From Flagellimonas ochracea (GTDB lineage: Bacteria; Bacteroidota; Bacteroidia; Flavobacteriales; Flavobacteriaceae): a DNA stretch of 64,000 nt. The notes beneath the pieces were generated by a model that was given only the letters and a program-made list of their open reading frames with translations, searched no databases and was not told the DNA's origin. Both the position numbers and the translations under genes were made by a program. Shown in pieces: positions 13,262 to 40,160 of this stretch (the stretch's first letter is position 1; each line of letters starts with the position of its first letter). Where the stretch lies: the NCBI RefSeq assembly GCF_009903685.1, contig NZ_JAAABI010000001.1, forward strand, positions 248,001 to 312,000, given 5' to 3'.

Positions 13262-13984
13262 CTAGTATTTCCGAACACTTCCAGAAACGGACTTTTTCGT
13301 TTCCACGTTTGCCTCTCCAGTATATGATATATCCGCTCCGCTACTGGCATCGGCAACCAATGATTCTGAAACGTTCACGGAGATATCAGCTCCGCTGCTA
13401 GCATCCGCATTACAATTTTTGGTCATTAGGCTTCGGGCTCTTATGTCCGCTCCGCTACTGGCATCGGCATACAGATAATCTGTTTGTCCACTAACCTTTA
13501 TTTCTGCCCCGCTGCTAGCTTCAGCAGAAACCTCTTGGGCGGTTAACTCCACTTGTAGGTCAGCACCACTGCTGGCTTCCAATTCCACTCTTTTAGAGGT
13601 TACGACGTTTTGTACAATAAGGTCTGCACCGCTGGAGCTTTTTAGTGCCTCAACCTTGGGAAGTGTTACATAAATCTTTTTGGTGGCCCTGCCAATATTT
13701 TCAATAGCATGTATTTTAAGTCTTCCATCCCTGATGTCAGTCCCAATCAGATCAATGATGTTTTCGTCGGCTTCTACCAAAATTTTAAACTCGCTGTCCT
13801 GTGTTACAAATACATCCAGTCCCTCCGAAGCAGAGACCACACTAAAGTCTTCTTTTACGTTTCTGGTTTCTTCCACCACATTTCCGTTCCCTCGTTTCCC
13901 GTTTCCAAAGTTGACATCCAACATGCAGGAGGAGGCAAAGATGGAAAAGAAAATGGCGATTGCAATTTTAGCTAGTGTTGTCAT
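13262..13984 (-). CDS. Head-GIN (DUF2807) domain lipoprotein with SSGA repeats
   Basis: About 240 residues. I chose the ATG at 13984 since it gives a signal peptide ending in a lipobox (FASSC); an in-frame start 23 codons upstream is unlikely. The DUF2807/head-GIN domain begins FSVVSASEGLDVFVTQ. From the middle on there are six copies of SSGAD or SSGAE spaced 18-21 residues apart, one turn each of a predicted beta-helix. It is the last gene of the DUF4870-PadR-PspC-head-GIN operon; such genes are thought to be part of an envelope-stress module, but the function is not established. Confidence 0.85.
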   Translation of the reverse strand: MTTLAKIAIAIFFSIFASSCMLDVNFGNGKRGNGNVVEETRNVKEDFSVVSASEGLDVFVTQDSEFKILVEADENIIDLIGTDIRDGRLKIHAIENIGRATKKIYVTLPKVEALKSSSGADLIVQNVVTSKRVELEASSGADLQVELTAQEVSAEASSGAEIKVSGQTDYLYADASSGADIRARSLMTKNCNADASSGADISVNVSESLVADASSGADISYTGEANVETKKSVSGSVRKY

Positions 13985-14070
13985 GATTGTTGTTTTAATG
14001 ATTGATTCAAAATTCGTATTATCTATATATTTATTTAAGAAAAGGTTACCCAACTGTCAAAATTGACGGT

Positions 14071-15810
14071 TCAGTTGTCTTTCTTTTCTCCGGTCTTAAT
14101 TTCAACGCCTTCTTCATCGATTTTCATTTTAAAGGAATCATCACGATTTTTTAAATCGATATTTACACCATCTTCATTAATGATGATTTGCCCTCCTTCT
14201 TCCTGTTCATCAATCTTTTCGGCCTCCTCTTCAGGGCAGTCCAGGCATTTTAACTCTCCATCTTCTCCCATGGCCCAGGTATATCCAACAATTCCGCTTC
14301 TGTAATAATCCCGGTCATTGGAAATTCCTCTTCCCACATGTCCTCGGGTCGATTCGTCAAAACGAACAATCCTGCCCTCGGGAACATATATGGTAGAGGT
14401 CACCTCTTGGTTTCGGGCTTTGTTCGATGGATCTGTGGTTAGATACTCATCCAAGATGATTTGGTTGTCACGTAGCTCATACCTGTAGTTGATTTCCTTG
14501 GCTCTTTCCCTGGCGGCCAAGGTGGTGTTTCCATGGGCATCTTTTCGTATATTAATCTTTACAATGGAATCCTCGGACTTTCTCATTTTGATGTCCACCT
14601 CATCTGAAATCAAAATTTTCTTGTCGTTTTCATCATAGGTGAAGGCCATTCTTCCAAAATGCAGATTGTCCATCCCATAATCCAACTCGGAGTCTCTCAT
14701 CTTAATAAATAAGGTGTCGGTTGCATTCTCCATAGTGATTTGCTCTTTGATGTTGGTACTGCCAACATTGGCAAACTCCGCTGTTTGGCGTATGGCCAGT
14801 GCAAAAAGTACCCCCATGGAGATCAACCATAGTCCCAAGAGCGAAAACTTTGCAATGTTGCCAATGGATTTAAGGTTGTTGACCAAGATTTTCAGTCCGA
14901 GATAGAGTAAAAAGAAAAACGGTATGCCCAGTGCAAAGAACAACAATAGGGACACAACCCAAACTGGTGCACCTGTGGTGAGCACGATTTCATAAAAATC
15001 CACACCTGGTAAATGCACAGCATTGACCATGCCCACGGTGAACAAAGCGATAAACAAGCCAATTAGGGTTGCTGCACCAATAATGATCAATAAGATGCCA
15101 ATGAACTTGCCAAATACTTTGAAGAGGAACATAATAATGTCCCCTAGGGTATCAAAAAAGGTCTTGGAGCCGCTCTTGACCTTGTTGCCCACTTTTTCGT
15201 AGTCAACATTTTTTACTTTATCTGCAACATCATCAAACCCCTCTTTAACTTTGCGTTCTATATTGCTGATGTTGATAGGCTCTCCCCGCATGTCCAATTT
15301 TTGCGAGGTGGTTGCGGCTTCGGGCACCAATATCCACAACAATAGATAGGCAATCAGTCCAAATCCGGTGAATACGGCCAACAAAATAAAAATCAGTCTG
15401 ATCCAAAGTGCATCAAAACCGAGGTAGTGCTCCAGACCAGCGCAGACACCACCAATGTATTTTTGGTCCACATCACGGTACAGTTTTTTGGCCCTGCTTC
15501 TAGGTTGCTCGAAACTCCTTTTGGGTTCATCCTCAAAAATGTCCTCATCGACCATATAGTCCTCAGGTTGCCCCATAATGTTGATGACGGCATCCACTTC
15601 TTTTTGAGTGATGACCTGACGTTCGTTTTCCATTTTTTCCAAGAAAAGCTCGGCAATCCGGGCCTCAATATCGGAGATGATTTCATCACTTCCGGTTGTG
15701 CCGGCAAAGGAGCGTTTTATCGATTCCAAGTATCGCCTTAATTTGTCGTACGCACTGTCGTCTATGTGAAAGAGCGTATTGGCGAGATTTATATTTACTG
15801 TCTTGTTCAT
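14071..15810 (-). CDS. PspC domain-containing membrane protein
   Basis: 579 residues. Order of parts: a soluble N-terminal helical region (LFHIDDSAYDKLRRYLESI, IISDIEARIAELF, then a region that resembles permuted DUF1700-like helices), a PspC domain at about residues 108-170 (YIGGVCAGLEHYLG, then a long hydrophobic segment), further transmembrane helices to about residue 340, and a C-terminal soluble beta-domain resembling DUF4097/head-GIN adhesin-like repeats. PspC proteins act in phage-shock/envelope-stress sensing in other bacteria. It lies between PadR (12 bases upstream) and head-GIN (86 bases downstream). Confidence 0.88.
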   Translation of the reverse strand: MNKTVNINLANTLFHIDDSAYDKLRRYLESIKRSFAGTTGSDEIISDIEARIAELFLEKMENERQVITQKEVDAVINIMGQPEDYMVDEDIFEDEPKRSFEQPRSRAKKLYRDVDQKYIGGVCAGLEHYLGFDALWIRLIFILLAVFTGFGLIAYLLLWILVPEAATTSQKLDMRGEPINISNIERKVKEGFDDVADKVKNVDYEKVGNKVKSGSKTFFDTLGDIIMFLFKVFGKFIGILLIIIGAATLIGLFIALFTVGMVNAVHLPGVDFYEIVLTTGAPVWVVSLLLFFALGIPFFFLLYLGLKILVNNLKSIGNIAKFSLLGLWLISMGVLFALAIRQTAEFANVGSTNIKEQITMENATDTLFIKMRDSELDYGMDNLHFGRMAFTYDENDKKILISDEVDIKMRKSEDSIVKINIRKDAHGNTTLAARERAKEINYRYELRDNQIILDEYLTTDPSNKARNQEVTSTIYVPEGRIVRFDESTRGHVGRGISNDRDYYRSGIVGYTWAMGEDGELKCLDCPEEEAEKIDEQEEGGQIIINEDGVNIDLKNRDDSFKMKIDEEGVEIKTGEKKDN

Positions 15811-15822
15811 TGCTTTAGATTC

Positions 15823-16152
15823 TTATTTAGTGTTGGTTACCAGATTAACTGCATTTCTAAGTTCGTCCCAGGTGCCATTGAGTTCTTTTAGGAACAATTG
15901 GCCTGTTTCCGTAAGTGCGTAATATTTGCGGGGCGGTCCGGAGGTGGATTCTTCCCAACGATAATTGAGCAGTCCAGCATTTTTTAGCCTTGTCAACAAG
16001 GGATAAATGGTTCCTTCCACCACCAGCATCTTAGCGTCTTTTAGGGCTTCTAGAATTTCGGAGGCATACTTGTCCTCATCTTTGATGATGGAGAGTATGC
16101 AATACTCCAGAACCCCTTTGCGCATTTGTGCTTTTGTGTTTTCTATGTTCAT
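15823..16152 (-). CDS. PadR family transcriptional regulator
   Basis: 109 residues with the short winged helix of PadR: KGVLEYCILSIIKDEDKYAS, EILEALKDAKMLVVEGTIYP and LLTRLKNAGLLNYRWEES, then GPPRKYYALTETG. It encodes the likely repressor of its own operon (DUF4870, PadR, PspC, head-GIN). A GTACT-N11-AGTAC site upstream of the first gene is a candidate binding site. The 12-base gap to pspC indicates co-transcription. Confidence 0.92.
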   Translation of the reverse strand: MNIENTKAQMRKGVLEYCILSIIKDEDKYASEILEALKDAKMLVVEGTIYPLLTRLKNAGLLNYRWEESTSGPPRKYYALTETGQLFLKELNGTWDELRNAVNLVTNTK

Positions 16153-16213
16153 AACTTCATGGTTCTAATTTTACCGAACTGGGTCCGGGATTTGATTAAC
16201 TGTTCGTTTTTTT

Positions 16214-16256
16214 GTTTCCACTTCCAGTCCCCTGTGATGAGCAGGGGAGTGGAAAC
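16214..16256 (+). terminator. Long inverted repeat with T-run on the plus strand
   Basis: GTTTCCACT (16214-16222) pairs with AGTGGAAAC (16248-16256), and inside it CCCCTG pairs with CAGGGG. On the plus strand it is followed by GTTTTTTG, giving a classical terminator, yet the genes on both sides run on the minus strand. In the minus direction it is followed by As and would not terminate. It may stop antisense transcripts or act as a processing or stability hairpin between DUF4870 and padR. Confidence 0.5.
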
Positions 16257-16302
16257 GTTTTTTGATTGATTGATTTTTTGATTGATGATTAAACTCCTGT
16301 TT

Positions 16303-16785
16303 TTATTTGATGAATTTTATGGTAAACGGATATTTAAAGGTTTCTCCTTCGTTGGTCCTTATGGTCGCCAATATGGTATATACTATATTGATAATGGCCA
16401 AAGCTAGCTGAAAGATTCCTGTGATGCCTGCAGGCCAGAACAACCGACCAAACCGAAAGTCGTCACTGCTTATGTGGATGTTCAAGTTGTTCAAGTCGCT
16501 CAATCGATGAAATCCAAAATGGTCCCAATCGAACAAGTCGGGCAGAAAACCGATAAAAAATGGAATGGTAATCAGTCCAGCAACAATTGAATAGAGCAAC
16601 ATACTCATTTGAAAATTGAGGGCCTGTTTTCCATTATAGTCCACAAACTTGTGCTCTTTTTTGTTCGCTGTCCACAGAATCAAAGGAAAAATAAAGTTCC
16701 CGAAGGGAATAAAATATTTTGAGAAGGTGGACGCATGTATTATTGCGGACAAATTTCTTTCGTGTTTGGTTATTGTGGCAGCCAT
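16303..16785 (-). CDS. DUF4870 family membrane protein
   Basis: 160 residues. Family features: a start with HERNLSAIIHASTFSKYFIP, a hydrophobic segment (FGNFIFPLILWTANKKEH), then FVDYNGKQALNFQMSMLLYS, two more transmembrane segments and a terminal YPFTIKFIK. Small polytopic inner-membrane protein of unknown role. It is the first gene before PadR on the same strand, separated by 150 bases that contain a large hairpin. Together with PadR, PspC and head-GIN it forms a grouping seen in Flavobacteria. Confidence 0.85.
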   Translation of the reverse strand: MAATITKHERNLSAIIHASTFSKYFIPFGNFIFPLILWTANKKEHKFVDYNGKQALNFQMSMLLYSIVAGLITIPFFIGFLPDLFDWDHFGFHRLSDLNNLNIHISSDDFRFGRLFWPAGITGIFQLALAIINIVYTILATIRTNEGETFKYPFTIKFIK

Positions 16786-26911: not shown

Positions 26912-27331
26912 TCAAAAGCGGATACTCAACTCCAAATCTTCTTCTTTGACCTCAAATTTGGCCATTTCAAAAGTAGGAGGTCCATAGGACATGTCGTTGC
27001 CTGACATTCCATAACTCTCTTTGGGCATGCCGTTTTCTTGGTAGTCCATTCTGTTATTTTCATTTGCATCGTGGAGCGCCATTATGGCATAGGTGCCTGG
27101 GATGACATTATCAAAGGTGAAGGTTACCTTTCCATTTTCGATTGCTCTTACAGTGTTTTGAAAGCCCGCACCTTTCATAAAGGTGTCAGCTGTGTGTAAG
27201 CCGGCCAAAACTTGTCCTTCGTCGCTTGTTACATTGTCAATGGTAACTTTAATCTGGATTCCTTGGTTTTCTTGCGCCAATCCCATTAGGCTTACAAATA
27301 ATAGTGTCAATGATAGTGCTACAATTTTCAT
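26912..27331 (-). CDS. DUF2141 family secreted protein
   Basis: About 139 residues from ATG 27331, with signal peptide MKIVALSLTLLFVSLMGLAQ. The mature domain follows DUF2141: IKVTIDNVTSDEGQVLAGLH, then VIPGTYAIMALHDANENNRM and MSYGPPTFEMAKFEV. Predicted periplasmic beta-sandwich, function unknown. It is divergent from a TonB-dependent receptor with about 210 bases between starts, and an inverted repeat lies in that region, so the two may be coregulated. Confidence 0.88.
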   Translation of the reverse strand: MKIVALSLTLLFVSLMGLAQENQGIQIKVTIDNVTSDEGQVLAGLHTADTFMKGAGFQNTVRAIENGKVTFTFDNVIPGTYAIMALHDANENNRMDYQENGMPKESYGMSGNDMSYGPPTFEMAKFEVKEEDLELSIRF

Positions 27332-27421
27332 AAGGTACTTTTTTATTTGATTAATGGCCCAAAATTGAACCAAAGGTCTCCTCCAATAAAATTCACTTGA
27401 CTGAAATGTAGATTTTTGATT

Positions 27422-27445
27422 CCGAATTGTACGACGGGAATTCGG
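27422..27445. promoter_or_regulatory. Inverted repeat between DUF2141 and the TonB receptor
   Basis: CCGAATT-N10-AATTCGG, perfect 7-base arms, about 90 bases from the DUF2141 start and 97 bases from the receptor start. A candidate operator for a dimeric regulator controlling both divergent genes; the regulator is unknown. Confidence 0.35.
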
Positions 27446-27541
27446 TTTTCAATTCATCCATTAAAATGGACAATTGGGTATTTCCTTTTAGTTCTTTAAA
27501 AAGTCAAGAGGCATTTTTGGGCCATCAAAAAACGAATGGTC

Positions 27542-29701
27542 ATGAAAAACCTTGTCCTTTTCATTAGCTTACTCTTTTTCAGCAGCGTACAGGCCCAAAC
27601 GGTTATATCAGGAAGGGTCACGGACACAAAAAAAAATCCAATTGCAGGGGCCAATGTATATCTGGAGGGGACCTATGATGGTGCCTCTACGGACGAGAAT
27701 GGAAATTTTAATTTTGAAACCGTGGAAACGGGCACCCAGACTTTGGTTGTCTCCATACTTTCTTATGAGCCGCACTACGAGGTTGGGGATGTAAAATATT
27801 TTAACGAATTAACAATTAGCTTGATTGAATCCATTAATTCCTTAACCGGGGTTACCTTGACTGCTGGTACTTTTGAAGCAGGGGATAACTCCAAAGTGTC
27901 CGTGTTAAAACCTTTGGACATTGTTACCACAGCCGGTGCCGTTGGCGATTTTGTTGGAGCATTGCAAACCTTACCGGGCACGGCCACGGTGAACGAGGAT
28001 GGCCGATTGTTTGTTCGCGGCGGAGATGCCGGGGAGACCCAGGTTTTTATTGATGGACTTCGAGTTTTTCAGCCCTTTAATGCCACGGCCAACAATATTC
28101 CTACACGAGGAAGGTTTTCAGCTTTCCTTTTCAAAGGAATCACTTTCAGCACAGGAGGATATTCTGCTGAATACGGACAGGCACTCTCTAGCGTACTGTT
28201 GTTGAACACCACTGATGTTCCGACACAAGAAAAAACGGACGTTTCCATAATGTCTGTTGGGGCAGGTCTGGGACATACCGAAATATGGGGAGATCAATCC
28301 GTAAGCTTAAACACTTCCTATATCAATTTGGCACCCTACGAGGGCTTGATACCTTCCACACAAGGGGTGAGGTGGAACAGTCCTTATGAATCCATATCGG
28401 GAGAAGCAGTCTTTAGAAGTAAAGGAGAGAGAAGCATGTTTAAACTGTACACTGGATTTAATCACGCTAATTTGGATATCGAGCAAGAAGACATCAATTT
28501 TGAGGATTTTGTTAGCTTTCAGTTGACCAATGACAACCTATATTTCAATAGCTCCTATAAATATTTCTTTGAAAATGATTGGAGTATAACCACCGGGGCT
28601 TCCGTTGCTTGGGATACCAACGATATTGTTTTGCTCGAAGACAATATTGAAACCAAAGAGAGGGCTATGCATACCAAATTGAAAGCCCACAAAAGCTTTA
28701 GCAGCAAACTGAATATAGATTTGGGGACGGAACTTTTTATCGTGGATTATGAAGATACCCTCACCGAGCAAGAAGGTGTGCTTTTGGGGAGCGGGTACAA
28801 TAATCAGTTGTGGGCTGGTTTTGTGGAGACCAACATTTTTTTCAGCAATCAATTGGCCATGAAAGTGGGTGCCAGAGCAGAGCACAGTTCACTGTTGACA
28901 GATTTTACGCTGTCACCTCGGGTTTCTTTGGCATACAAGCCGGGAGAAAAAGGTCAGTTTTCATTGGCCTATGGCGATTTTTACCAAAACCCTAGGAACG
29001 AAGTCATCAAATTTGATGATACTCTGCTTTCAGAAAGAACTTCGCACTACATACTGAATTACCAGTACTTGGAAGACGGAAAGACACTCAGGGCTGAAGC
29101 TTACTACAAGGATTACCGGAATCTTATAAAGCATGATACCCAACAGCCACAGTTTAATTCGGTTTTTAGCAATAACGGTTTCGGACATGCCGCAGGACTT
29201 GATATTTTTTGGAGAGATAATAAGAGTGTTAAAAACCTCGACTATTGGCTTTCCTATTCTTTTTTGGATACCGAAAGGGATTTTAGGGATTTCAGAGAAG
29301 CGGTCAGACCCAACTTTGCCCCGAAACACAATCTATCCTTGGTCACGAAATATTGGGTGGACGATTTACGGTCACAGGTAGGGTTTTCTTATGCTTTTGC
29401 ATCGGGTAGGCCGTATGACAATGCGAACACTGCGGAGTTTATGGCTGAAAGGACCAAGTCTTTTAACAGCTTGAGTTTCAATTGGGCCTACCTAATCGAC
29501 CAGCAAAAAATTCTATATTTCTCTGTGAACAATGTATTGGGCTTCAATAACATCAATAATTATCAATATGCTAACACACCCAATGGCAATGGAACTTTTG
29601 ACCGCAGGGCCATCAGACCCGCAGCGGATAGTTTTTTCTTTGTAGGCTTCTTTTGGACCATTAGCTCCGACGGCAAAAGCAACCAGTTGGATAACCTTTA
29701 G
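27542..29701 (+). CDS. TonB-dependent receptor
   Basis: 719-residue outer-membrane transporter. From ATG 27542: signal peptide MKNLVLFISLLFFSSVQAQ, carboxypeptidase-like domain (ISGRVTDTKKNPIAGANVYL, STDENGNFNFETVETG), plug (GALQTLPGTATVNEDGRLFV, then RGGDAGETQVFIDGL), and a barrel. Complete, unlike the first receptor. The substrate is unknown. It is convergent with the DoxX gene only 2 bases away, so the terminators must lie inside one another's coding sequence or be absent. Confidence 0.93.
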   Translation: MKNLVLFISLLFFSSVQAQTVISGRVTDTKKNPIAGANVYLEGTYDGASTDENGNFNFETVETGTQTLVVSILSYEPHYEVGDVKYFNELTISLIESINSLTGVTLTAGTFEAGDNSKVSVLKPLDIVTTAGAVGDFVGALQTLPGTATVNEDGRLFVRGGDAGETQVFIDGLRVFQPFNATANNIPTRGRFSAFLFKGITFSTGGYSAEYGQALSSVLLLNTTDVPTQEKTDVSIMSVGAGLGHTEIWGDQSVSLNTSYINLAPYEGLIPSTQGVRWNSPYESISGEAVFRSKGERSMFKLYTGFNHANLDIEQEDINFEDFVSFQLTNDNLYFNSSYKYFFENDWSITTGASVAWDTNDIVLLEDNIETKERAMHTKLKAHKSFSSKLNIDLGTELFIVDYEDTLTEQEGVLLGSGYNNQLWAGFVETNIFFSNQLAMKVGARAEHSSLLTDFTLSPRVSLAYKPGEKGQFSLAYGDFYQNPRNEVIKFDDTLLSERTSHYILNYQYLEDGKTLRAEAYYKDYRNLIKHDTQQPQFNSVFSNNGFGHAAGLDIFWRDNKSVKNLDYWLSYSFLDTERDFRDFREAVRPNFAPKHNLSLVTKYWVDDLRSQVGFSYAFASGRPYDNANTAEFMAERTKSFNSLSFNWAYLIDQQKILYFSVNNVLGFNNINNYQYANTPNGNGTFDRRAIRPAADSFFFVGFFWTISSDGKSNQLDNL

Positions 29702-34135: not shown

Positions 34136-34705
34136 TGTTTTTGGTTTTTAGTTGTTTAATTGAGATAAAGGGAAGCCCAAGCTTGTTTCCGCATTGGCTT
34201 CGTACTTTAGATTATAAAGCCTGTGTCAACAATATCTGTCACAGAAGACTTCAGGATAAATAATGACTGGTATGAATAATTGTTCTTAAAAACTAACGTT
34301 GGCAACTTGCTTAAATTCAAACATCATAGAACGACCTCAATGGCAAGTAAGGATCTAATTTAATATGGGGAACAAACCGAAAATGATGTGGGACGGGAAT
34401 AAATAAGCTATCGGTTACCGAATATAGTAAAAATCTGAAAATGAAATATTTAAAAATGAAATAATGTAAAAATTGTTCATAAAAACTCATTATTCCGCTA
34501 CTTTTCTTACACGCATCAAGGCTGTTTCTTTGGATTTCAAGACAAAGAACAAAAAAATAGGCCGTGTCAAACCATTTGTTGATTGGTCAGAGGTGTATAA
34601 ACACAATTCATCCGCAATAAAATACAGTTCGGTCAATGCTTCTTTGATGATGTATTGGTTGAATGCAATTTTGTGCCATAGTAATTCAACAAAAAACGAA
34701 CAGTC
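34136..34705. other. 570-base region upstream of the 2TM kinase operon
   Basis: No convincing gene. TCGGTTACCGA (34411-34421) is a short odd palindrome flanked by CTA and TAG, a possible operator. A 78-codon frame at 34473-34709 needs a TTG start and has no recognisable content. The region should contain the promoter for the operon starting at 34706. Confidence 0.45.
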
Positions 34706-35329
34706 ATGAAAAAACTCCTCACATTGGTCCTTTTGGGCATCGCTTCAATCTCATTTGCACAAGATCGTTATGATCAAGGCATGAAAAAGGCCTTCGCACT
34801 ATGGAAAGATCAAAAGGTCGTTGAGGCATCCAATCTCTTCGAACGTATTGCCATGGCAGAACCCGACAATTGGCTACCCCACTATTACGTAACACAATTA
34901 AATACTTTGATTTCCTTTGGAGAAAAGGATAAGGAAAAATTGACAAAACAATTGGAAAAGGCCAAAGAGTTTTTGGATTTGGCCAAGGCCATATCACCCA
35001 ACAACCCAGAACTTTTGATACAGGAAGCAATGATCAACACAGCATGGATTTCGTTTGATGGAGCAACTTATGGAATGACATTGTCCCCAATAAATGCTCA
35101 ATTGTACCAGAAGGCATTGGCTTTGGCCCCAGAAAATCCGCGAGTGGTATTTTCAAAAGCGGAATGGGACATGGGCAGTGCTCGATATTTTGGAAAGGAT
35201 ACTGCGCCTTATTGCAAGAATGTAGAGCGAGCACTGGAACTTTTTGCTAATTTTAGCAATGACACACCTTTTTATCCCTCCTGGGGAAAGGAGCGAGCGG
35301 AGATGATTTACAAACAATGCGGTGAATAG
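34706..35329 (+). CDS. Secreted TPR-repeat protein
   Basis: 207 residues. Signal peptide MKKLLTLVLLGIASISFAQ, then TPR-like helices (YDQGMKKAFALWKDQKVVEA, EKAKEFLDLAKAISPNNPE, LYQKALALAPENPRVVFSKA). It lies in the periplasm or outer membrane. Its stop overlaps the GTG start of the LytS-type kinase by 8 bases, so it is the first gene of that operon and could be an accessory sensor or ligand protein; this is inference from position. Confidence 0.85.
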   Translation: MKKLLTLVLLGIASISFAQDRYDQGMKKAFALWKDQKVVEASNLFERIAMAEPDNWLPHYYVTQLNTLISFGEKDKEKLTKQLEKAKEFLDLAKAISPNNPELLIQEAMINTAWISFDGATYGMTLSPINAQLYQKALALAPENPRVVFSKAEWDMGSARYFGKDTAPYCKNVERALELFANFSNDTPFYPSWGKERAEMIYKQCGE

Positions 35330-36668
35330 AAAAACGACAAATTATCTGGGAAGGCTTTTACTGGTTGCCATTGCAATTGGATTGGTGCTGGCAACCTTGT
35401 TCAATGGTTTGGAAGCAATATCAGGTGAGCCGATAGCCTTTGACGAAAAGCTGCTCCGTGAAGTTGGTTACTACATCTTTTACTCCATTGTACTGACGTT
35501 TTTGAACAGCCTGTATTTTGATTACATGAACCACAAGGTGGTTTGGAGAAAATACGCCAGATATCGCATATGGATAACAGCATTGGGAGGTATAGCCATC
35601 ACCATGTTGGGTATTTTTTGGATACGTATCACCACAAACATTGGATTTGAAGGTGAAAGTTGGGAAGAGTTCTTAAATGGAGAAAGGCCCATCTTTTATG
35701 TGGTAGCACTTTTAATCACCATAGTGGTCACTGTCTTTTTCCATGCTTTTTATTTTTACAAAAGCTGGCAGGAGAAAAAAGTCAAGGAACAAAAGATCAT
35801 TGCCGGCTCTGCATCTGCCCGTTTCGATGCCTTGAAAAATCAATTGGACCCCCATTTTCTGTTCAACAGCCTTAATGTGCTCACAAGTTTGATAGAAGAA
35901 GAACCCGAACAGGCCCAAAAATTCACGACATCCCTATCCAAGGTGTATCGCTATGTTTTGGAACAGAAAAATAAGGATTTGGTAACAGTAGATGAGGAAC
36001 TCAATTTTGCCAGGACCTATGTACGATTGCTAAAAATGCGATTTGAGGATAGCATTGTTTTTGAGATTCCTGAAAATTGTTCCAATCCCGAGGCCAAAAT
36101 TGTCCCCCTTTCTTTACAGTTGCTTCTGGAAAATGCCGTAAAGCACAACATTGTCACCGCTTCCAAACCTTTGCATATACAAGTTTACGAGCAGGAAGGA
36201 ATGTTGGTGGTCCGTAACAACCTACAAGAAAAACAAGTGGTGAAAAAGAGCAGTGGGGTGGGGCTTCAGAATATTAGGCAGCGGTACAATATTTTGACGG
36301 ATAGGGAAGTGGTCATCAACAAGACCGTAAGTGAATTTAGTGTAGCCCTGCCCATGCTGACCAAACAAATATCTGTAACCGAAACGCAAGAAAACTATAT
36401 AGAGGAAAAAAGGTATCTAAAAGCTAAAGAGAGGGTGAAGGGAATAAAAGATTTTTACAGCAATTTGATCTCGTATTGCATTGTTATTCCTTTTTTGTGG
36501 TGGCTCAATTTTAGGACTACCGATTTCCTATGGGCGTTTTTTCCAACCTTGGGATGGGGGTTCGGTGTATTGGCACATGGAATGGAAGCTTTTGGTTACA
36601 ACCCACTATGGGGGAAACGATGGGAGGAAAGGAAGATTCAGGAGTTGATGGACGAGGACGATTTTTAA
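35322..36668 (+). CDS. LytS-type histidine kinase with C-terminal 2TM domain
   Basis: 448 residues, GTG start overlapping the TPR gene. Four N-terminal transmembrane helices (about residues 8-30, 45-65, 80-100, 125-145), then the His_kinase motif LKNQLDPHFLFNSLNVL with His178, a HATPase (LQLLLENAVKHNIV, SSGVGLQNIRQRYNIL), and finally from about residue 365 a 2TM domain: KAKERVKGIKDFYSNLISYC and GWGFGVLAHGMEAFGYNPLW, KRWEERKIQELM. The tail is homologous to the four stand-alone proteins that follow. The phosphate should go to the LytTR regulator at the end of the operon. Confidence 0.93.
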   Translation: MNRKTTNYLGRLLLVAIAIGLVLATLFNGLEAISGEPIAFDEKLLREVGYYIFYSIVLTFLNSLYFDYMNHKVVWRKYARYRIWITALGGIAITMLGIFWIRITTNIGFEGESWEEFLNGERPIFYVVALLITIVVTVFFHAFYFYKSWQEKKVKEQKIIAGSASARFDALKNQLDPHFLFNSLNVLTSLIEEEPEQAQKFTTSLSKVYRYVLEQKNKDLVTVDEELNFARTYVRLLKMRFEDSIVFEIPENCSNPEAKIVPLSLQLLLENAVKHNIVTASKPLHIQVYEQEGMLVVRNNLQEKQVVKKSSGVGLQNIRQRYNILTDREVVINKTVSEFSVALPMLTKQISVTETQENYIEEKRYLKAKERVKGIKDFYSNLISYCIVIPFLWWLNFRTTDFLWAFFPTLGWGFGVLAHGMEAFGYNPLWGKRWEERKIQELMDEDDF

Positions 36669-36784
36669 AAACGCCAAGTCCTCAATGGTATCGATGAATT
36701 ACTCATTTCTGAAATTCTCATTCAATTCATCCCCAAAAAGCAACAGTTCGCGAATCCTTTTTTCATCCCCTTGAACGATATTTT

Positions 36785-36792
36785 TAAGTTTG
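36785..36792 (+). promoter_or_regulatory. Possible internal promoter (-7 box) before the 2TM genes
   Basis: TAAGTTTG matches TAnnTTTG exactly, 47 bases ahead of the first 2TM start at 36839. A TTG lies only about 12 bases upstream, too close for a usual -33 element, so the promoter is uncertain. Confidence 0.3.
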
Positions 36793-36838
36793 ATTCATGA
36801 ACGACGAATCAAGTACACATCAATCAAAAAAATCGAAC

Positions 36839-37117
36839 ATGGAAAACATAACGGATTACAAATACAAAAAAGCAAAGCAGAAAGTGGAATGCATTAAATC
36901 CTTTCATATCCACTTAACGGTCTATGTTATTGTGATTTCTTTTTTAACTTTTATCAATTACATGACCACAGATTACTTTTGGGTGATTTTTCCAGCCTTA
37001 GGATGGGGTGTGGGACTGATAGGACACTGGCTACACGTCTACGGAACCGATTATTTCTTAGGGAGCAATTGGGAAAAGCGCAAGATCCAACAATTCATGG
37101 ACAAGGAAGAATTCTAA
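36839..37117 (+). CDS. 2TM domain protein 1
   Basis: 92 residues from ATG 36839 (MENITDYKYKKAKQKVECIK). An upstream in-frame ATG at 36797 exists, but paralogues start about 12 residues before the A-K/R-x-R/K-V motif, favouring 36839. Two transmembrane helices (FHIHLTVYVIVISFLTFINY; YFWVIFPALGWGVGLIGHWL) are joined by a short loop, and the tail WEKRKIQQFMDKEEF is the family signature. First of four tandem paralogues between the kinase and its regulator. Function unknown; a membrane partner of the kinase is inferred from the kinase carrying the same domain. Confidence 0.85.
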   Translation: MENITDYKYKKAKQKVECIKSFHIHLTVYVIVISFLTFINYMTTDYFWVIFPALGWGVGLIGHWLHVYGTDYFLGSNWEKRKIQQFMDKEEF

Positions 37118-37157
37118 TGAAGCCTTATCTTTAAGAAGCATCAATAAAACCAACATT

Positions 37158-37460
37158 ATGGAAAACAACAACAAAGAGAGCAAATACATAAGGGCCAAAG
37201 AACGCGTGGACGAACTAAAAAAATTCTATGCCAATTTGTGGTCGTACATTTTGGTTATATCCGTATTGGCCTTGATCAATTATCTTACCAATGGATTTAG
37301 TTACATGTGGTTTTTATGGGCCGCATTTGGTTGGGGAATTGGCGTGTTTTTTCATGCCATAGGAACTTTTAACTTAAATCCATTTTTTGGCAAAGGCTGG
37401 GAAGAACGTAAAATCAAAGAGCTAATGAACGATGAAGATGAAACAAAAAAATGGAGATGA
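37158..37460 (+). CDS. 2TM domain protein 2
   Basis: 100 residues. Same layout: MENNNKESKYIRAKERVDEL, first helix WSYILVISVLALINYLT, second helix WFLWAAFGWGIGVFFHAIG, then NLNPFFGKGWEERKIKELMN. This copy is the most like the kinase tail (KAKERV, NPL/FWGK, WEERKI). It lies 40 bases after copy 1 and its end overlaps the region just before the start of copy 3. Confidence 0.87.
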   Translation: MENNNKESKYIRAKERVDELKKFYANLWSYILVISVLALINYLTNGFSYMWFLWAAFGWGIGVFFHAIGTFNLNPFFGKGWEERKIKELMNDEDETKKWR

Positions 37461-37462
37461 TT

Positions 37463-37765
37463 ATGGGTGTGGAGCAAAACAAACTGGAGCGGGCCAAAAA
37501 ACGTGTCGATGAAATAAAGGGGTTCTACGTGCATCTTTCAATATATATAGTCATAAATGCATTTGTTTTAGTCAATATCTATCTCAACACTGACCGTTTT
37601 TGGCAATGGCCCCATTTCGTCACCTTGTTCGGCTGGGGAATTGGGTTGGCGCTCCATGCCTCCAAAACATTTGGATTTAATCCCTTGTTTGGCAAAAAAT
37701 GGGAAGAGCGGCAGATTCAAAAGTATATCGATGAGGACAAAAAGAAAATGGATAAGTTCAAATAA
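37463..37765 (+). CDS. 2TM domain protein 3
   Basis: 100 residues. I chose ATG 37463 (MGVEQNKLERAKKRVDEIKG) because it has exactly the same length before the KRV motif as copy 4; ATGs at 37451 and 37457 overlap the previous stop. Helices HLSIYIVINAFVLVNIYL and WPHFVTLFGWGIGLALHA, tail GFNPLFGKKWEERQIQKYID. Two bases separate it from both neighbours, indicating tight translational coupling. Confidence 0.87.
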   Translation: MGVEQNKLERAKKRVDEIKGFYVHLSIYIVINAFVLVNIYLNTDRFWQWPHFVTLFGWGIGLALHASKTFGFNPLFGKKWEERQIQKYIDEDKKKMDKFK

Positions 37766-37767
37766 GA

Positions 37768-38109
37768 ATGGAAAACGAAATCATCAGACTGGAGCGGGCA
37801 AGGAAGAGAGTGGGCCAGTTAAAGAAATTCTACTCTCATATTATGATTTACATTGTGGTCAATATCGCACTAGTTGTCCTTAAATTGCATTTGTTTGAAA
37901 GCCTAAGGGATTGGGGTAACGGTATTGAATTCCACGAAGTACATTGGACAGATCGAAAAATCATATCCACCCCTTTAATTTGGGGAGTCTTCCTTATTGG
38001 TCACGGAATTTGGGTTTACAGTAGGCCTTTGACAAGAAGGTGGGAAGAAAGACAGATTAAAAAATATATGGCAAAGGAGGAAGAGGAAGAGTTAAAGCGT
38101 TACAGGTAG
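37768..38109 (+). CDS. 2TM domain protein 4, with extended loop
   Basis: 113 residues, MENEIIRLERARKRVGQLKK. The first helix is IMIYIVVNIALVVLKLHLF. The inter-helix loop is longer than in the other copies (SLRDWGNGIEFHEVHWTDRK) and is acidic and His-containing. The second helix is IISTPLIWGVFLIGHGIWVY and the tail RRWEERQIKKYMAKEEEEEL. This copy lacks the GWG in helix 2. It is the most diverged member, directly before the response regulator (14-base gap). Confidence 0.85.
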   Translation: MENEIIRLERARKRVGQLKKFYSHIMIYIVVNIALVVLKLHLFESLRDWGNGIEFHEVHWTDRKIISTPLIWGVFLIGHGIWVYSRPLTRRWEERQIKKYMAKEEEEELKRYR

Positions 38110-38123
38110 TTAAAGGGACAAAA

Positions 38124-38879
38124 ATGAACGTAATTATCATAGAAGACGAAAAACCAGCAGCAAGAAGACTGAACAGGTTGCTGGAGCAACTGAATGTACA
38201 AGTATCCATAATGCTCCATTCCGTCGATGAATCCATTGAATGGTTTCAGAACAATCCACATCCCGATCTCATTTTTCTGGACATTCAATTGTCAGATGGG
38301 CTTTCTTTTGAAATTTTTGATATGGTAGAGGTGCAAAGTGCCGTTATTTTCACCACTGCTTTTGATGAATATGCATTGCAGGCCTTCAAGTTGAACAGCA
38401 TCGATTATTTGCTAAAACCCATTGATGATGAAGAGCTGGAAAGAGCCGTCAAAAAATACCGAAATCTTAAGTTGGGATCGCAACAAATTTCCATCGATTT
38501 TGAAGACATAAAAAAGCTTTTGGTGAATCCTTTGGAACGGGAATACAAAAAACGTTTTACGGTGAAGGTGGGTCAGCATCTAAAAATTTTAAATGCCGAT
38601 GATGTGGAAAGTTTTTATAGTGAAAACAAAGGAACCTATGCGGCCACTTCCGACGGTAGAAATTATTTGTTGGATACCACCCTTGAGCAATTGGAAGAGG
38701 AGTTGTCCCCAGAAACGTTCTTTAGGGTCAGTAGAAAGTTTTATGTGAACTTGAACCATATAAAGGACATAGTAGCTTACACCAATTCTCGGTTAAAAAT
38801 AAATCTAAATCGGTTTGATGAGCAAGAAATAATTGTGAGCAGAGAACGCGTAAGAGACTTTAAGTTATGGTTGGAATAA
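38124..38879 (+). CDS. LytTR-family response regulator
   Basis: 251 residues. Receiver domain with acidic EDE (residues 7-9), phospho-acceptor Asp53 (LIFLDIQLSDG), Thr in VIFTTAFDEYALQAFKLNS and Lys in LLKPID. The C-terminal LytTR DNA-binding domain (about residues 145-250) contains RFTVKVGQHLKILNADDVES, FYSENKGTYAATSDGRNYLL and FRVSRKFYVNLNHIKDIV. Cognate regulator of the LytS-type kinase encoded at the front of this operon. Its targets are unknown; it may regulate the operon itself. Confidence 0.94.
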   Translation: MNVIIIEDEKPAARRLNRLLEQLNVQVSIMLHSVDESIEWFQNNPHPDLIFLDIQLSDGLSFEIFDMVEVQSAVIFTTAFDEYALQAFKLNSIDYLLKPIDDEELERAVKKYRNLKLGSQQISIDFEDIKKLLVNPLEREYKKRFTVKVGQHLKILNADDVESFYSENKGTYAATSDGRNYLLDTTLEQLEEELSPETFFRVSRKFYVNLNHIKDIVAYTNSRLKINLNRFDEQEIIVSRERVRDFKLWLE

Positions 38880-38969: not shown

Positions 38970-40160
38970 TTAAGAATCCTCTACGCGGTTTTCATCAAAA
39001 GCAGAAGGAAGTAATTTGGGGATTAGTTTGATAAAAATGGGCAGCAAAACGGCTCCACCTGGTAGCATAAAAATGGCCAAGGAAGGGATGCTCTTAAAAA
39101 CATCAATCAATTGTTTTTGTACTTTTTTCCTTTCTTCCGGATCCAAATCCTTTACCGTGGACTTGGATAAAAGTGCAACCAATTCACGACTTTCTGCGAG
39201 CTCTTTTTTGAGTCTTTTGCTGTTTCTCAGAATCAATTTACTTACACTTTTGGACATGCCTTCGTAGAACTGAAGCGCTAAATTTTTATCGTTTAAGTAG
39301 GATACCCTCGGGGCATTTTTTTCAAAAAAATCTTGAATAAAACTTACAGCTGATTTTACTTCTTTTTTGGATTTTTCCAAGTCTTTTCCAAGTCCTAAAA
39401 TGTAATCGGTTTCGGTACGGTCCAATGATTTATCTTCCCAAATCGTCAAACAGGCCATATCCAAAAAGTAATCTTTCTCATACTTGGTGAAGTTCTTCCT
39501 TAGCAACTCGGTGTAAGAGCCATTAAATTCGTTTTCATTCAAGTTCACATAGGTCAGCGAGGCATCTAAAAGTTGGATGAGTTTCTCATCGGTTTCATGT
39601 GTTTTTTTTGAACTTAGGGCTTTGTAGACAATATTCATGGTAGCATACTCCAGTAATTGGGCATGCTGCATGGTTTTTCCAGGATTGTTCAGATAATGCT
39701 GGAAGATCAAGATATCAACAAACAATAACGAGTTGGTAAGGCTGTTTCCAAAAGCTCGGCTAAAGGCATTGCCACCCAAATAAATTCTTGAATCTATCAA
39801 TTTCTCCAGCTGTGATGCCGTATGCGTACCACTCAATATTTTGTTCAAAAAAGAAATTTTACCCACATCCAAGGATTGGTAATAACCGAAAACGGTATTG
39901 ACAAAAGTGTCAAAGTCTTTTTTCCCCGTTTCGAACAAATGGGTAAAGTATAGCGCGGTAAGCAAATTGATTTTGGCCACTTCATCTTCAGTGAGCGAGT
40001 GCTCTACATCAATGAAATTGGCAATTTCCAAATGAATTCCGTAGACAAACCCATTGTTTTTAAGCTGGAGATAGAGGTCTTCAAAGCTCTCAAAAGCCTT
40101 GGATTTATGAACTACAAGGTGTCCAAACTTATTTATCCAACCGGAAGCAGATGGGTTCAT
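38970..40160 (-). CDS. LETM1-related biofilm-associated protein
   Basis: 396 residues. The N-terminus MNPSASGWINKFGHLVVHKS is characteristic of the Flavobacteriia family annotated under this name. A long helical body follows, and the C-terminal part (LILRNSKRLKKELAESRELV, VKDLDPEERKKVQKQLIDVF, SLAIFMLPGGAVLLPIFIKL) resembles the ribosome-binding region and single transmembrane helix of mitochondrial LETM1. The family is linked to biofilm by annotation only. It is convergent with the LytTR gene. Confidence 0.85.
   Translation of the reverse strand: MNPSASGWINKFGHLVVHKSKAFESFEDLYLQLKNNGFVYGIHLEIANFIDVEHSLTEDEVAKINLLTALYFTHLFETGKKDFDTFVNTVFGYYQSLDVGKISFLNKILSGTHTASQLEKLIDSRIYLGGNAFSRAFGNSLTNSLLFVDILIFQHYLNNPGKTMQHAQLLEYATMNIVYKALSSKKTHETDEKLIQLLDASLTYVNLNENEFNGSYTELLRKNFTKYEKDYFLDMACLTIWEDKSLDRTETDYILGLGKDLEKSKKEVKSAVSFIQDFFEKNAPRVSYLNDKNLALQFYEGMSKSVSKLILRNSKRLKKELAESRELVALLSKSTVKDLDPEERKKVQKQLIDVFKSIPSLAIFMLPGGAVLLPIFIKLIPKLLPSAFDENRVEDS

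Follow-up and report, generated by a model that had tools for sequence, protein, structure and literature searches.

A LytS/LytTR locus of Flagellimonas ochracea with free relatives of the kinase's C-terminal 2TM domain and predicted feedback control

The 64,000-nucleotide stretch of Flagellimonas ochracea DNA analyzed here (the window; positions 248,001 to 312,000 of contig NZ_JAAABI010000001.1) contains on its + strand a single gene cluster that runs from a tetratricopeptide repeat (TPR) protein through a LytS-type histidine kinase ending in a 2TM domain (PF13239) and four free 2TM genes (c1 to c4) to a LytTR response regulator. Our reading, which we hold to be reasonably probable, is that the cluster encodes a LytS/LytTR system equipped with small membrane subunits and a feedback loop of its own. 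It is built on the gene order, the co-occurrence of the kinase with free 2TM copies, the division of the 2TM domains into two classes, and LytTR-type boxes with the genes behind them, all of which can be read off the sequences compared. If correct, this would be a two-component system whose kinase membrane domain also exists as separately controlled subunits; PF13239 would gain a testable function, and a kinase carried by 116 of the 149 genera sampled from its family would be tied to a predicted regulon, which in this genome has five box sites.

The gene order and the 2TM domain at the end of the kinase had been proposed in an earlier note on this DNA and are borne out by the genes themselves and by Pfam. 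The kinase (35322..36668, +) consists of a helical, membrane-like N-terminal part, a core with His_kinase (PF06580, 5.3e-26 at residues 166-244), its phospho-acceptor region and an ATP-binding core, and the 2TM tail (9e-29 at residues 367-444). Residues H178, N271 and G312 are invariant in 52 sequences. The AlphaFold model has a mean pLDDT of 81, with tail helices at 356-399 and 406-424, and its core aligns structurally to histidine kinases, best to GanS (Z 12.9, root-mean-square deviation 5.1, 172 aligned). The closest relative among 80 named loci is the kinase of [Muricauda] meishanensis (91% identity in the best segment). The regulator (38124..38879, +) combines a receiver domain (Response_reg, 4.4e-14; receiver stretch IFLDIQLSDG) with a LytTR domain (1.1e-21). 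A PF06580 kinase, a LytTR response regulator and direct repeats of ~21-bp period as likely target sites place the pair with LytS/LytTR systems such as BtsSR, YpdAB, AlgZR and LytSR. What sets the present system apart is the C-terminal 2TM hairpin of its kinase, the presence of one to seven free relatives of this hairpin between the kinase and regulator genes, and its predicted targets, which are genes for a TonB-dependent receptor and for DUF2141 and DUF2807 proteins. The TPR protein (34706..35329, +; TPR_19, 1.2e-5) has, by eye, a signal-peptide-like start and is probably periplasmic.

The free copies, all on the + strand, are c1 (36839..37117; 2TM 8e-28), c2 (37158..37460; 4e-30), c3 (37463..37765; 1e-27) and c4 (37768..38109; 4e-19). 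Their 2TM bit scores (96.7, 104.1, 96.4 and 69.1) and that of the kinase (99.8) all exceed the Pfam curated cut-off of 24.8. A longer c1 starting at 36797 is possible; the start at 36839 is likelier because a promoter-like TTTG lies at 36789. For c3 the possible starts are 37451, 37457 (an ATGA overlapping the c2 stop) and 37463, and with the last of these the 2-base gaps previously seen around c3 are present on both sides (the c3-c4 gap is 2 bases; with 37457, c2 and c3 overlap); by a nearest-ATG rule, the 2-base gap before c3 recurs in the nine relatives listed. The longer loop of c4 and its lack of a GWG motif, also remarked on before, are genuine, with IWG in place of GWG. The AlphaFold model of c3 (mean pLDDT 88) has helices at 2-42, 50-70 and 78-99, that is, a long helix running into the first transmembrane segment (TM1), a second such segment (TM2) and a C-terminal helix, and the kinase tail is modeled with a similar set.

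This arrangement is a conserved flavobacterial system and not a local oddity. In a family survey of one genome for each of 149 genera (kinase match cut-off E 1e-40), the kinase was matched in 119, in its tailed form in 116 by the alignments listed; matches in the remaining three (G065, G119 and G186) end near residue 350, short of a tail. Loci were read in 80 of the 119 kinase-positive genomes, in 10 genomes of the same genus and in 2 of another family of the order, together with the 80 named loci and the window. Merging 12 of these 173 as duplicates by identical kinase ends left 161 distinct loci, of which 153 span kinase to regulator; kinase sequence was the sole criterion for telling loci apart, and the set is weighted towards relatives of the window's genus. 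Between kinase and regulator there are one to seven free 2TM copies in all 153 and zero in none (one copy in 23, two in 37, three in 40, four in 45, five in 2, six in 5, and seven in 1), and a TPR match lies directly 5' of the kinase in 114. The other eight lack a regulator behind the array: L173, L191, L213, L226 and L230 stop at a contig end, and L118, L149 and L159 do not. The sole locus of the 161 without a free copy is L191, which stops at that very point. The F. ochracea genome has six 2TM matches, five of them at this locus and the sixth on another contig, and 34 of 35 same-genus relatives carry five to seven, the exception (G014) being 75% complete.

Absence of the kinase tells the same story from the other side. 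No array-type 2TM was found in the 23 genomes examined out of the 33 in the family that lack a tailed kinase; 11 of the 23 have one 2TM match, which lies in a frame of 147-316 residues and has neither a kinase nor a regulator match closer than 1.5 kb, and 12 have none. A 2TM match was present in 71 genomes of a phylum sample of 296, with at least four per genome only in the window's own family and in one other of the same order (f5), and one to three elsewhere. The earlier note had taken the free copies to be part of the kinase system and had proposed counting them between LytS-type and LytTR genes in other genomes, and these counts agree with it. It had also reasoned that the same copies occurring far from any kinase would speak against such a link; the remote 2TMs inspected closely belong to another branch, beside or fused to dihydrofolate reductase.

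The 2TM domains fall into two classes. In a FastTree analysis of 139 domains (32 hand-chosen loci plus 15 outside 2TMs), a tail-like clade (support 0.833) holds 32 of 32 tails, 21 of 26 first copies and 17 of 34 middle copies, and a distal clade holds all 26 last copies and all 6 only copies, with 17 middle and 3 first copies; support for the distal clade is 0.323 alone and 0.971 when lone and outgroup 2TMs are included. A quick IQ-TREE search recovered both sets, with 70 and 52 rows and supports of 86 and 76, and the split is identical in these two trees and in a time-limited IQ-TREE run. When the analysis was extended to 597 domains, the tail-like set (0.892) comprised the 153 tails with 103 first, 72 middle, 3 last and 1 only copy. 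A tail-only clade without free copies was rejected (approximately unbiased [AU] test, p 0.002), some free copies nesting among tails; tails and some free copies therefore share history, and the nesting is as duplication or conversion between a tail and a free copy would give. In the window, c1 and c2 are tail-like and c3 and c4 distal. The earlier expectation that the copies group with the kinase tail thus stands for c1 and c2, which fall with the tails, and fails for c3 and c4, which form another class. A grouping of c3 and c4 with lone 2TMs was considered and is not upheld, as the placement of the six lone or outgroup 2TMs is unstable: they join the distal clade in FastTree (0.971) and the tail-like clade in the time-limited IQ-TREE run, which has no supports, and in the quick IQ-TREE search two fall with the distal clade and four outside both, the FastTree arrangement not being rejected by the AU test (p 0.706).

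The same division is seen in a single pair of residues. By mean-field direct coupling analysis, alignment positions 16 and 55, between TM1 and TM2, are the top coupled pair both in the 597 domains (rank 1 of 3160, z 11.3) and among the 444 free copies (rank 1 of 3240), a signal that pooling of two classes can inflate. Most tails have N/H (106 of 153), followed by S/Q (23), S/H (10) and H/H (8). H/H is found in 112 of 130 last copies, in all 23 sole copies and in at least one free copy of 150 of the 153 loci, and in the patterns that occur most often, copies with tail-like pairs come first and H/H copies last. In the window the pair is N/H in the kinase tail and c2 and H/H in c3, c4 and, despite its tail-like placement, c1. 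Two classes of copy and of residue pair support the "division of labour" that the earlier note had read into the divergence of c4. Conservation is also uneven: among the six genus members listed, identity is 78-95% for the tail, 75-95% for c2, 64-89% for c3, 48-77% for c1 and 31-64% for c4, c2 and c3 being kept in the genus and c4 evolving fast.

Control of the array by its own system is suggested by LytTR-type boxes, which, like the small regulon described below, were no part of the earlier note. A consensus for the LytTR half-site is established. Across 39 loci from the genus and its near relatives, the gap that separates the kinase from its first free copy contains a conserved non-coding block with a direct repeat of the ACAATTCAT and ACAGTTCG type and a period of 21 (38 sites, extracted from the 39 loci by a pattern open to periods of 20-23). 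A matrix of the 38 sites was applied to the 114 loci left out of it and exceeded a score of 8 somewhere on the forward strand in 104 of them; on the reverse strand, 1 locus of 153 gave such a score. A refitted matrix, which includes its build sites and is not independent of them, gives scores above its cut-off of 12 upstream of the kinase in 144 loci, in the gap in 82, and in either place in 151 of 153, the maximum from one shuffle per locus being 10.9. In 21 control loci, the only site above 8 was in L243, itself an outgroup kinase locus. The motif TTTG, which lies outside the matrix, is found at offset 67 in 135 of the 144 upstream sites and 70 of the 82 gap sites. In the window, both the upstream box (34603..34639, +; score 34.7; TTTG 34670-34673), a zero-mismatch hit in the own-genome pattern search, and the kinase-c1 gap box (36722..36758, +; score 40.5; TTTG 36789-36792) keep this offset. 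The two-part Bacteroidota promoter TTG-N-TAnnTTTG was tried in the gap and showed no excess (1 of 86 gaps longer than 40 bp; shuffles mean 0.8), and TAnnTTTG alone was slightly over chance (15 of 86; shuffles mean 7.6, maximum 14). According to an excerpt of a published account, LytTR direct repeats mostly have a 12-bp spacer and lie just upstream of the operon promoter (PMC6193735), and the boxes match that description in period and place. The LytTR regulator is the likely reader of the boxes. On account of these boxes, of which one separates the kinase from the array, the free copies are a predicted output of the system; they are very likely made under the control of their own system and would probably be its products as well as its partners.

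The window contains five matrix sites, at 34603, 36722 and 27449 on the + strand and at 27394 and 14042 on the - strand, all with TTTG at offset 67 and all 93-117 bp before the likely starts of, respectively, the TPR operon, the 2TM array and three further predicted regulon members. The first of these is a TonB-dependent receptor with a CarboxypepD_reg-like domain and a plug (27542..29701, +; box 27449..27485, +, score 36.0). The second, divergent from it behind a weaker box (27394..27430, -, score 16.8), is a DUF2141 protein with a signal-peptide-like start (26912..27331, -; PF09912, 1.4e-30). The third is a DUF2807 protein (13262..13984, -; PF10988, 3.5e-45; box 14042..14078, -, score 20.7). 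Orthologues of all three lie behind boxes elsewhere, those of the receptor in other genera. As a side observation, the DUF2807 gene stands downstream of genes for PadR and for PspC with a toastrack domain (13262-16785 in all), and its box overlaps the end of the PspC gene. A search of the own genome with one mismatch allowed found the pattern in six places, the five window sites and one inside a reading frame on contig 22. In 41 family genomes a similar pattern had 126 places, as compared to 47 for the reversed pattern, 32 of the 47 coming from two genomes; counted in the 126 are the kinase locus, five places that fall in a single repeat of G063, and six in four genomes without a kinase match (two in G064, one in G078, two in G080 and one in G081).

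Twenty stretches away from the kinase locus, hand-picked from these 126 places and mostly for good-looking sites, so that the sample is not random, contained 24 sites above 8; the next gene encodes an orthologue of the DUF2807 protein in 7, of the DUF2141 protein in 6 and of the TonB receptor in 5, and another protein in 3, with none in reach in 3, and TTTG lies at offset 67 in 18 of the 24. Boxes in L299, L300 and L303 precede a 216-residue DUF2306-like protein and two DUF4440-like proteins (165 and 169 residues), two of these three matches being below the Pfam cut-off; they are possible further members. Next to the kinase locus there are 31 further sites above 14, of which 28 stand before a frame whose start resembles, by eye, that of the same TonB receptor, and within the flanks of the 153 loci as fetched the receptor was found in 44 and DUF2141 in 34. 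Signal-peptide-like starts and family names are what suggest an envelope role for these genes.

Several unusual loci bear on how the free copies might act. In genome G147 (contig C45; L317, L329), a 547-residue kinase frame ends in two tandem 2TM domains whose pairs are, by eye, H/H and then S/Q, and the regulator follows directly with no free copy before it. In G088 (C15; L318), a kinase with two 2TM domains is accompanied by one free copy. A second 2TM fused to the kinase is the best hint available that free copies may assemble with the tail. Conversely, the related tail-less kinases of G186 and G119 have no 2TM between kinase and regulator; in G186 a DUF2141 gene precedes the kinase. In two outgroup genomes of another family of the class (G248 and G747), the order is free 2TM, tail-less LytS, LytTR regulator, with a box directly upstream in G248 (score 35.5, TTTG at offset 67) and ~0.7 kb upstream of the 2TM in G747 (score 36.5, TTTT at offset 67). 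Taken from these two genomes, this order suggests that the free form may have joined the kinase before the tail was fused to it. A LytS-LytTR pair in G365 (L343), with no 2TM match, a weak box (18.0) and TTTG at offset 67, is a possible older form of the circuit.

We thus propose that the kinase would have membrane-like helices at both ends of a cytoplasmic core, and that its C-terminal 2TM hairpin would assemble with free 2TMs of the tail-like and the distal, mostly His/His, kind, the mixed assembly setting kinase activity. The active LytTR regulator would then bind the 21-bp-period direct repeat at a fixed distance from the promoter and switch on its own operon and the 2TM array (for which the window has a second, internal box), as well as the genes for the TonB-dependent receptor, DUF2141 and DUF2807; the signal would be an envelope-related one. 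Newly made free 2TMs would feed back on the kinase, most likely by damping it. Positive autoregulation usually needs a brake, and it is solely for this reason that damping seems likelier than activation, which makes the direction of feedback a guess. A tentative extension, doubtful as it stands, is that the tail is a degenerate 2TM that lost His/His, that a free His/His 2TM acts as a co-receptor binding a ligand (metal, haem or similar), that tail-like copies serve as dampers, and that duplication and LytTR feedback tune the mix. A lead toward haem was not significant, the best PDB sequence match of the free-copy profile being the cytochrome b-245 heavy chain (E 0.22), and a Foldseek search of the PDB with c3 returned nothing at E 0.001 or better.

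A number of observations weigh against this proposal. In the 153 tails alone, the pair 16/55 ranks fifth; three of the 153 loci (L096, L097 and L147) have no H/H free copy; and the kinase with a second fused 2TM is known from two genomes only, of which G147 is 82% complete. Just 16 of the 23 genomes lacking the tailed kinase reach 90% completeness with contamination of 5% or less. L118, L149 and L159 have a tailed kinase and free copies with no regulator match in the following 5.9-6.7 kb. G064 (C8; L297, L298) has box-like sites before DUF2807 and DUF2141 genes, and no tailed kinase or matching regulator was found in that genome, so there may be an assembly gap or another regulator may read the box. 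It is position alone that ties the boxes to the regulator, and the fixed part of the promoter-like motif is TTTG, as the full TAnnTTTG occurs within 60 bp of 5 of 144 upstream boxes versus 3 of 144 control windows. The gap box is present in 73 of 93 loci with at least three free copies versus 9 of 60 with fewer, but this link vanishes in independent kinase-tree pairs (the box differs in 0-1 of 13), and an internal box rising with copy number was rejected as a clade effect. Finally, the AlphaFold models are of single chains, and contact of 2TMs with each other or with the kinase is conjectured.

The main rival, which we regard as unlikely, is that the free 2TMs are signal-induced effectors (e.g., membrane anchors or stabilizers) that do not act on the kinase, its tail being merely related to them; LiaI of LiaFSR is an example of such an anchor or stabilizer. 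Their place in the window behind a LytTR box, like the other predicted targets, would fit this, as would the lone 2TMs with no kinase nearby, but a pure effector would not be expected to be missing in its array form from the 23 genomes without a tailed kinase, nor to occur fused to the kinase as a second 2TM in two genomes. LiaFSR- and VraTSR-like intramembrane-sensing systems, which have accessory membrane proteins, do resemble the present one in combining a kinase and small membrane partners with a self-induced operon and envelope targets; they differ in their kinase and regulator families, and in them the accessory proteins do not duplicate a domain of the kinase.

Near-neutral tandem duplication, in which one free copy is needed and the others come and go with little function, is decidedly improbable. 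It would account for the poor conservation of c1 and c4 in the genus members compared and for the trait of at least three copies changing at least 19 times on the kinase tree, but not for the identities of c2 and c3 given above or for the prevalence of patterns with tail-like pairs first and H/H last. Equally improbable is the titration array that the earlier note had favored, read here as interchangeable free copies competing for the tail, with a threshold set by how many there are. Homology of tail and copies, their location in one gene cluster, the range of one to seven copies and the placement of c1 and c2 in the tail-like clade are all in keeping with it. The two classes, by tree and by residue pair, are not, and neither are the 23 single-copy loci, in all of which the copy is H/H, unlike most tails. 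What stands of that earlier idea is assembly with the tail, which the fusion favors; titration by number is unsupported given these single-copy loci and the lack of co-variation between copy number and box in independent pairs, and titration survives as a special case with copies of two kinds. It is very improbable that the free 2TMs hold the LytTR regulator at the membrane as inhibitors of a LytTR Regulatory System (LRS) do, since the kinase and the receiver domain are present here, the 2TM is also on the kinase itself and both outgroup genomes have their free 2TM gene ahead of the kinase gene, even though small membrane proteins beside a LytTR gene with direct-repeat autoregulation are the published LRS pattern (PMC6193735, in excerpt) and the copy nearest the regulator gene is usually distal.

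The comparison to LRS is otherwise instructive. An LRS consists minimally of a LytTR regulator and a membrane inhibitor, as stated in that same excerpt (PMC6193735), and it shares with the present locus small membrane proteins encoded with a LytTR regulator and direct repeats near the operon promoter, here the predicted boxes with TTTG at offset 67. An LRS regulator stands without a kinase; the present locus encodes both a kinase and a receiver domain, and its small membrane proteins are related to a domain of the kinase. Among the open-licence papers listed as matches, none was recognized by title or abstract as dealing with this operon or with PF13239 in Bacteroidota, and no open-licence full text was found with the accession PF13239. 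Mutations in F. johnsoniae FJOH_RS09515/09520 affect an adjacent LytTR/kinase pair, judging by locus tags in an excerpt of PMC10197871, and because the tags are adjacent this is probably another system. The cyanobacterial "2TM" in an excerpt of PMC7771541 is a glycine-zipper protein and thus of another kind, as is the S-2TM-beta of Panoptes in an excerpt of PMC12657218.

Some minor observations concern 2TM genes and neighbors elsewhere. Outside the locus, PF13239 forms stand alone or are beside or fused to dihydrofolate reductase. The sixth 2TM of the F. ochracea genome (G000:C33:42135-42377; L098) adjoins a dihydrofolate reductase gene, and in L249 the 2TM and the reductase are one protein (Pfam DHFR_1 and 2TM), L250 and L251 being alike by eye. 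A second regulator-like frame lies upstream of the kinase operon in seven loci (L067, L172, L174, L175, L209, L215 and L216). In the window, the regulator gene is adjoined by a gene for a LETM1-like protein (38970-40160, -), and a similar neighbor is seen by eye in L257.

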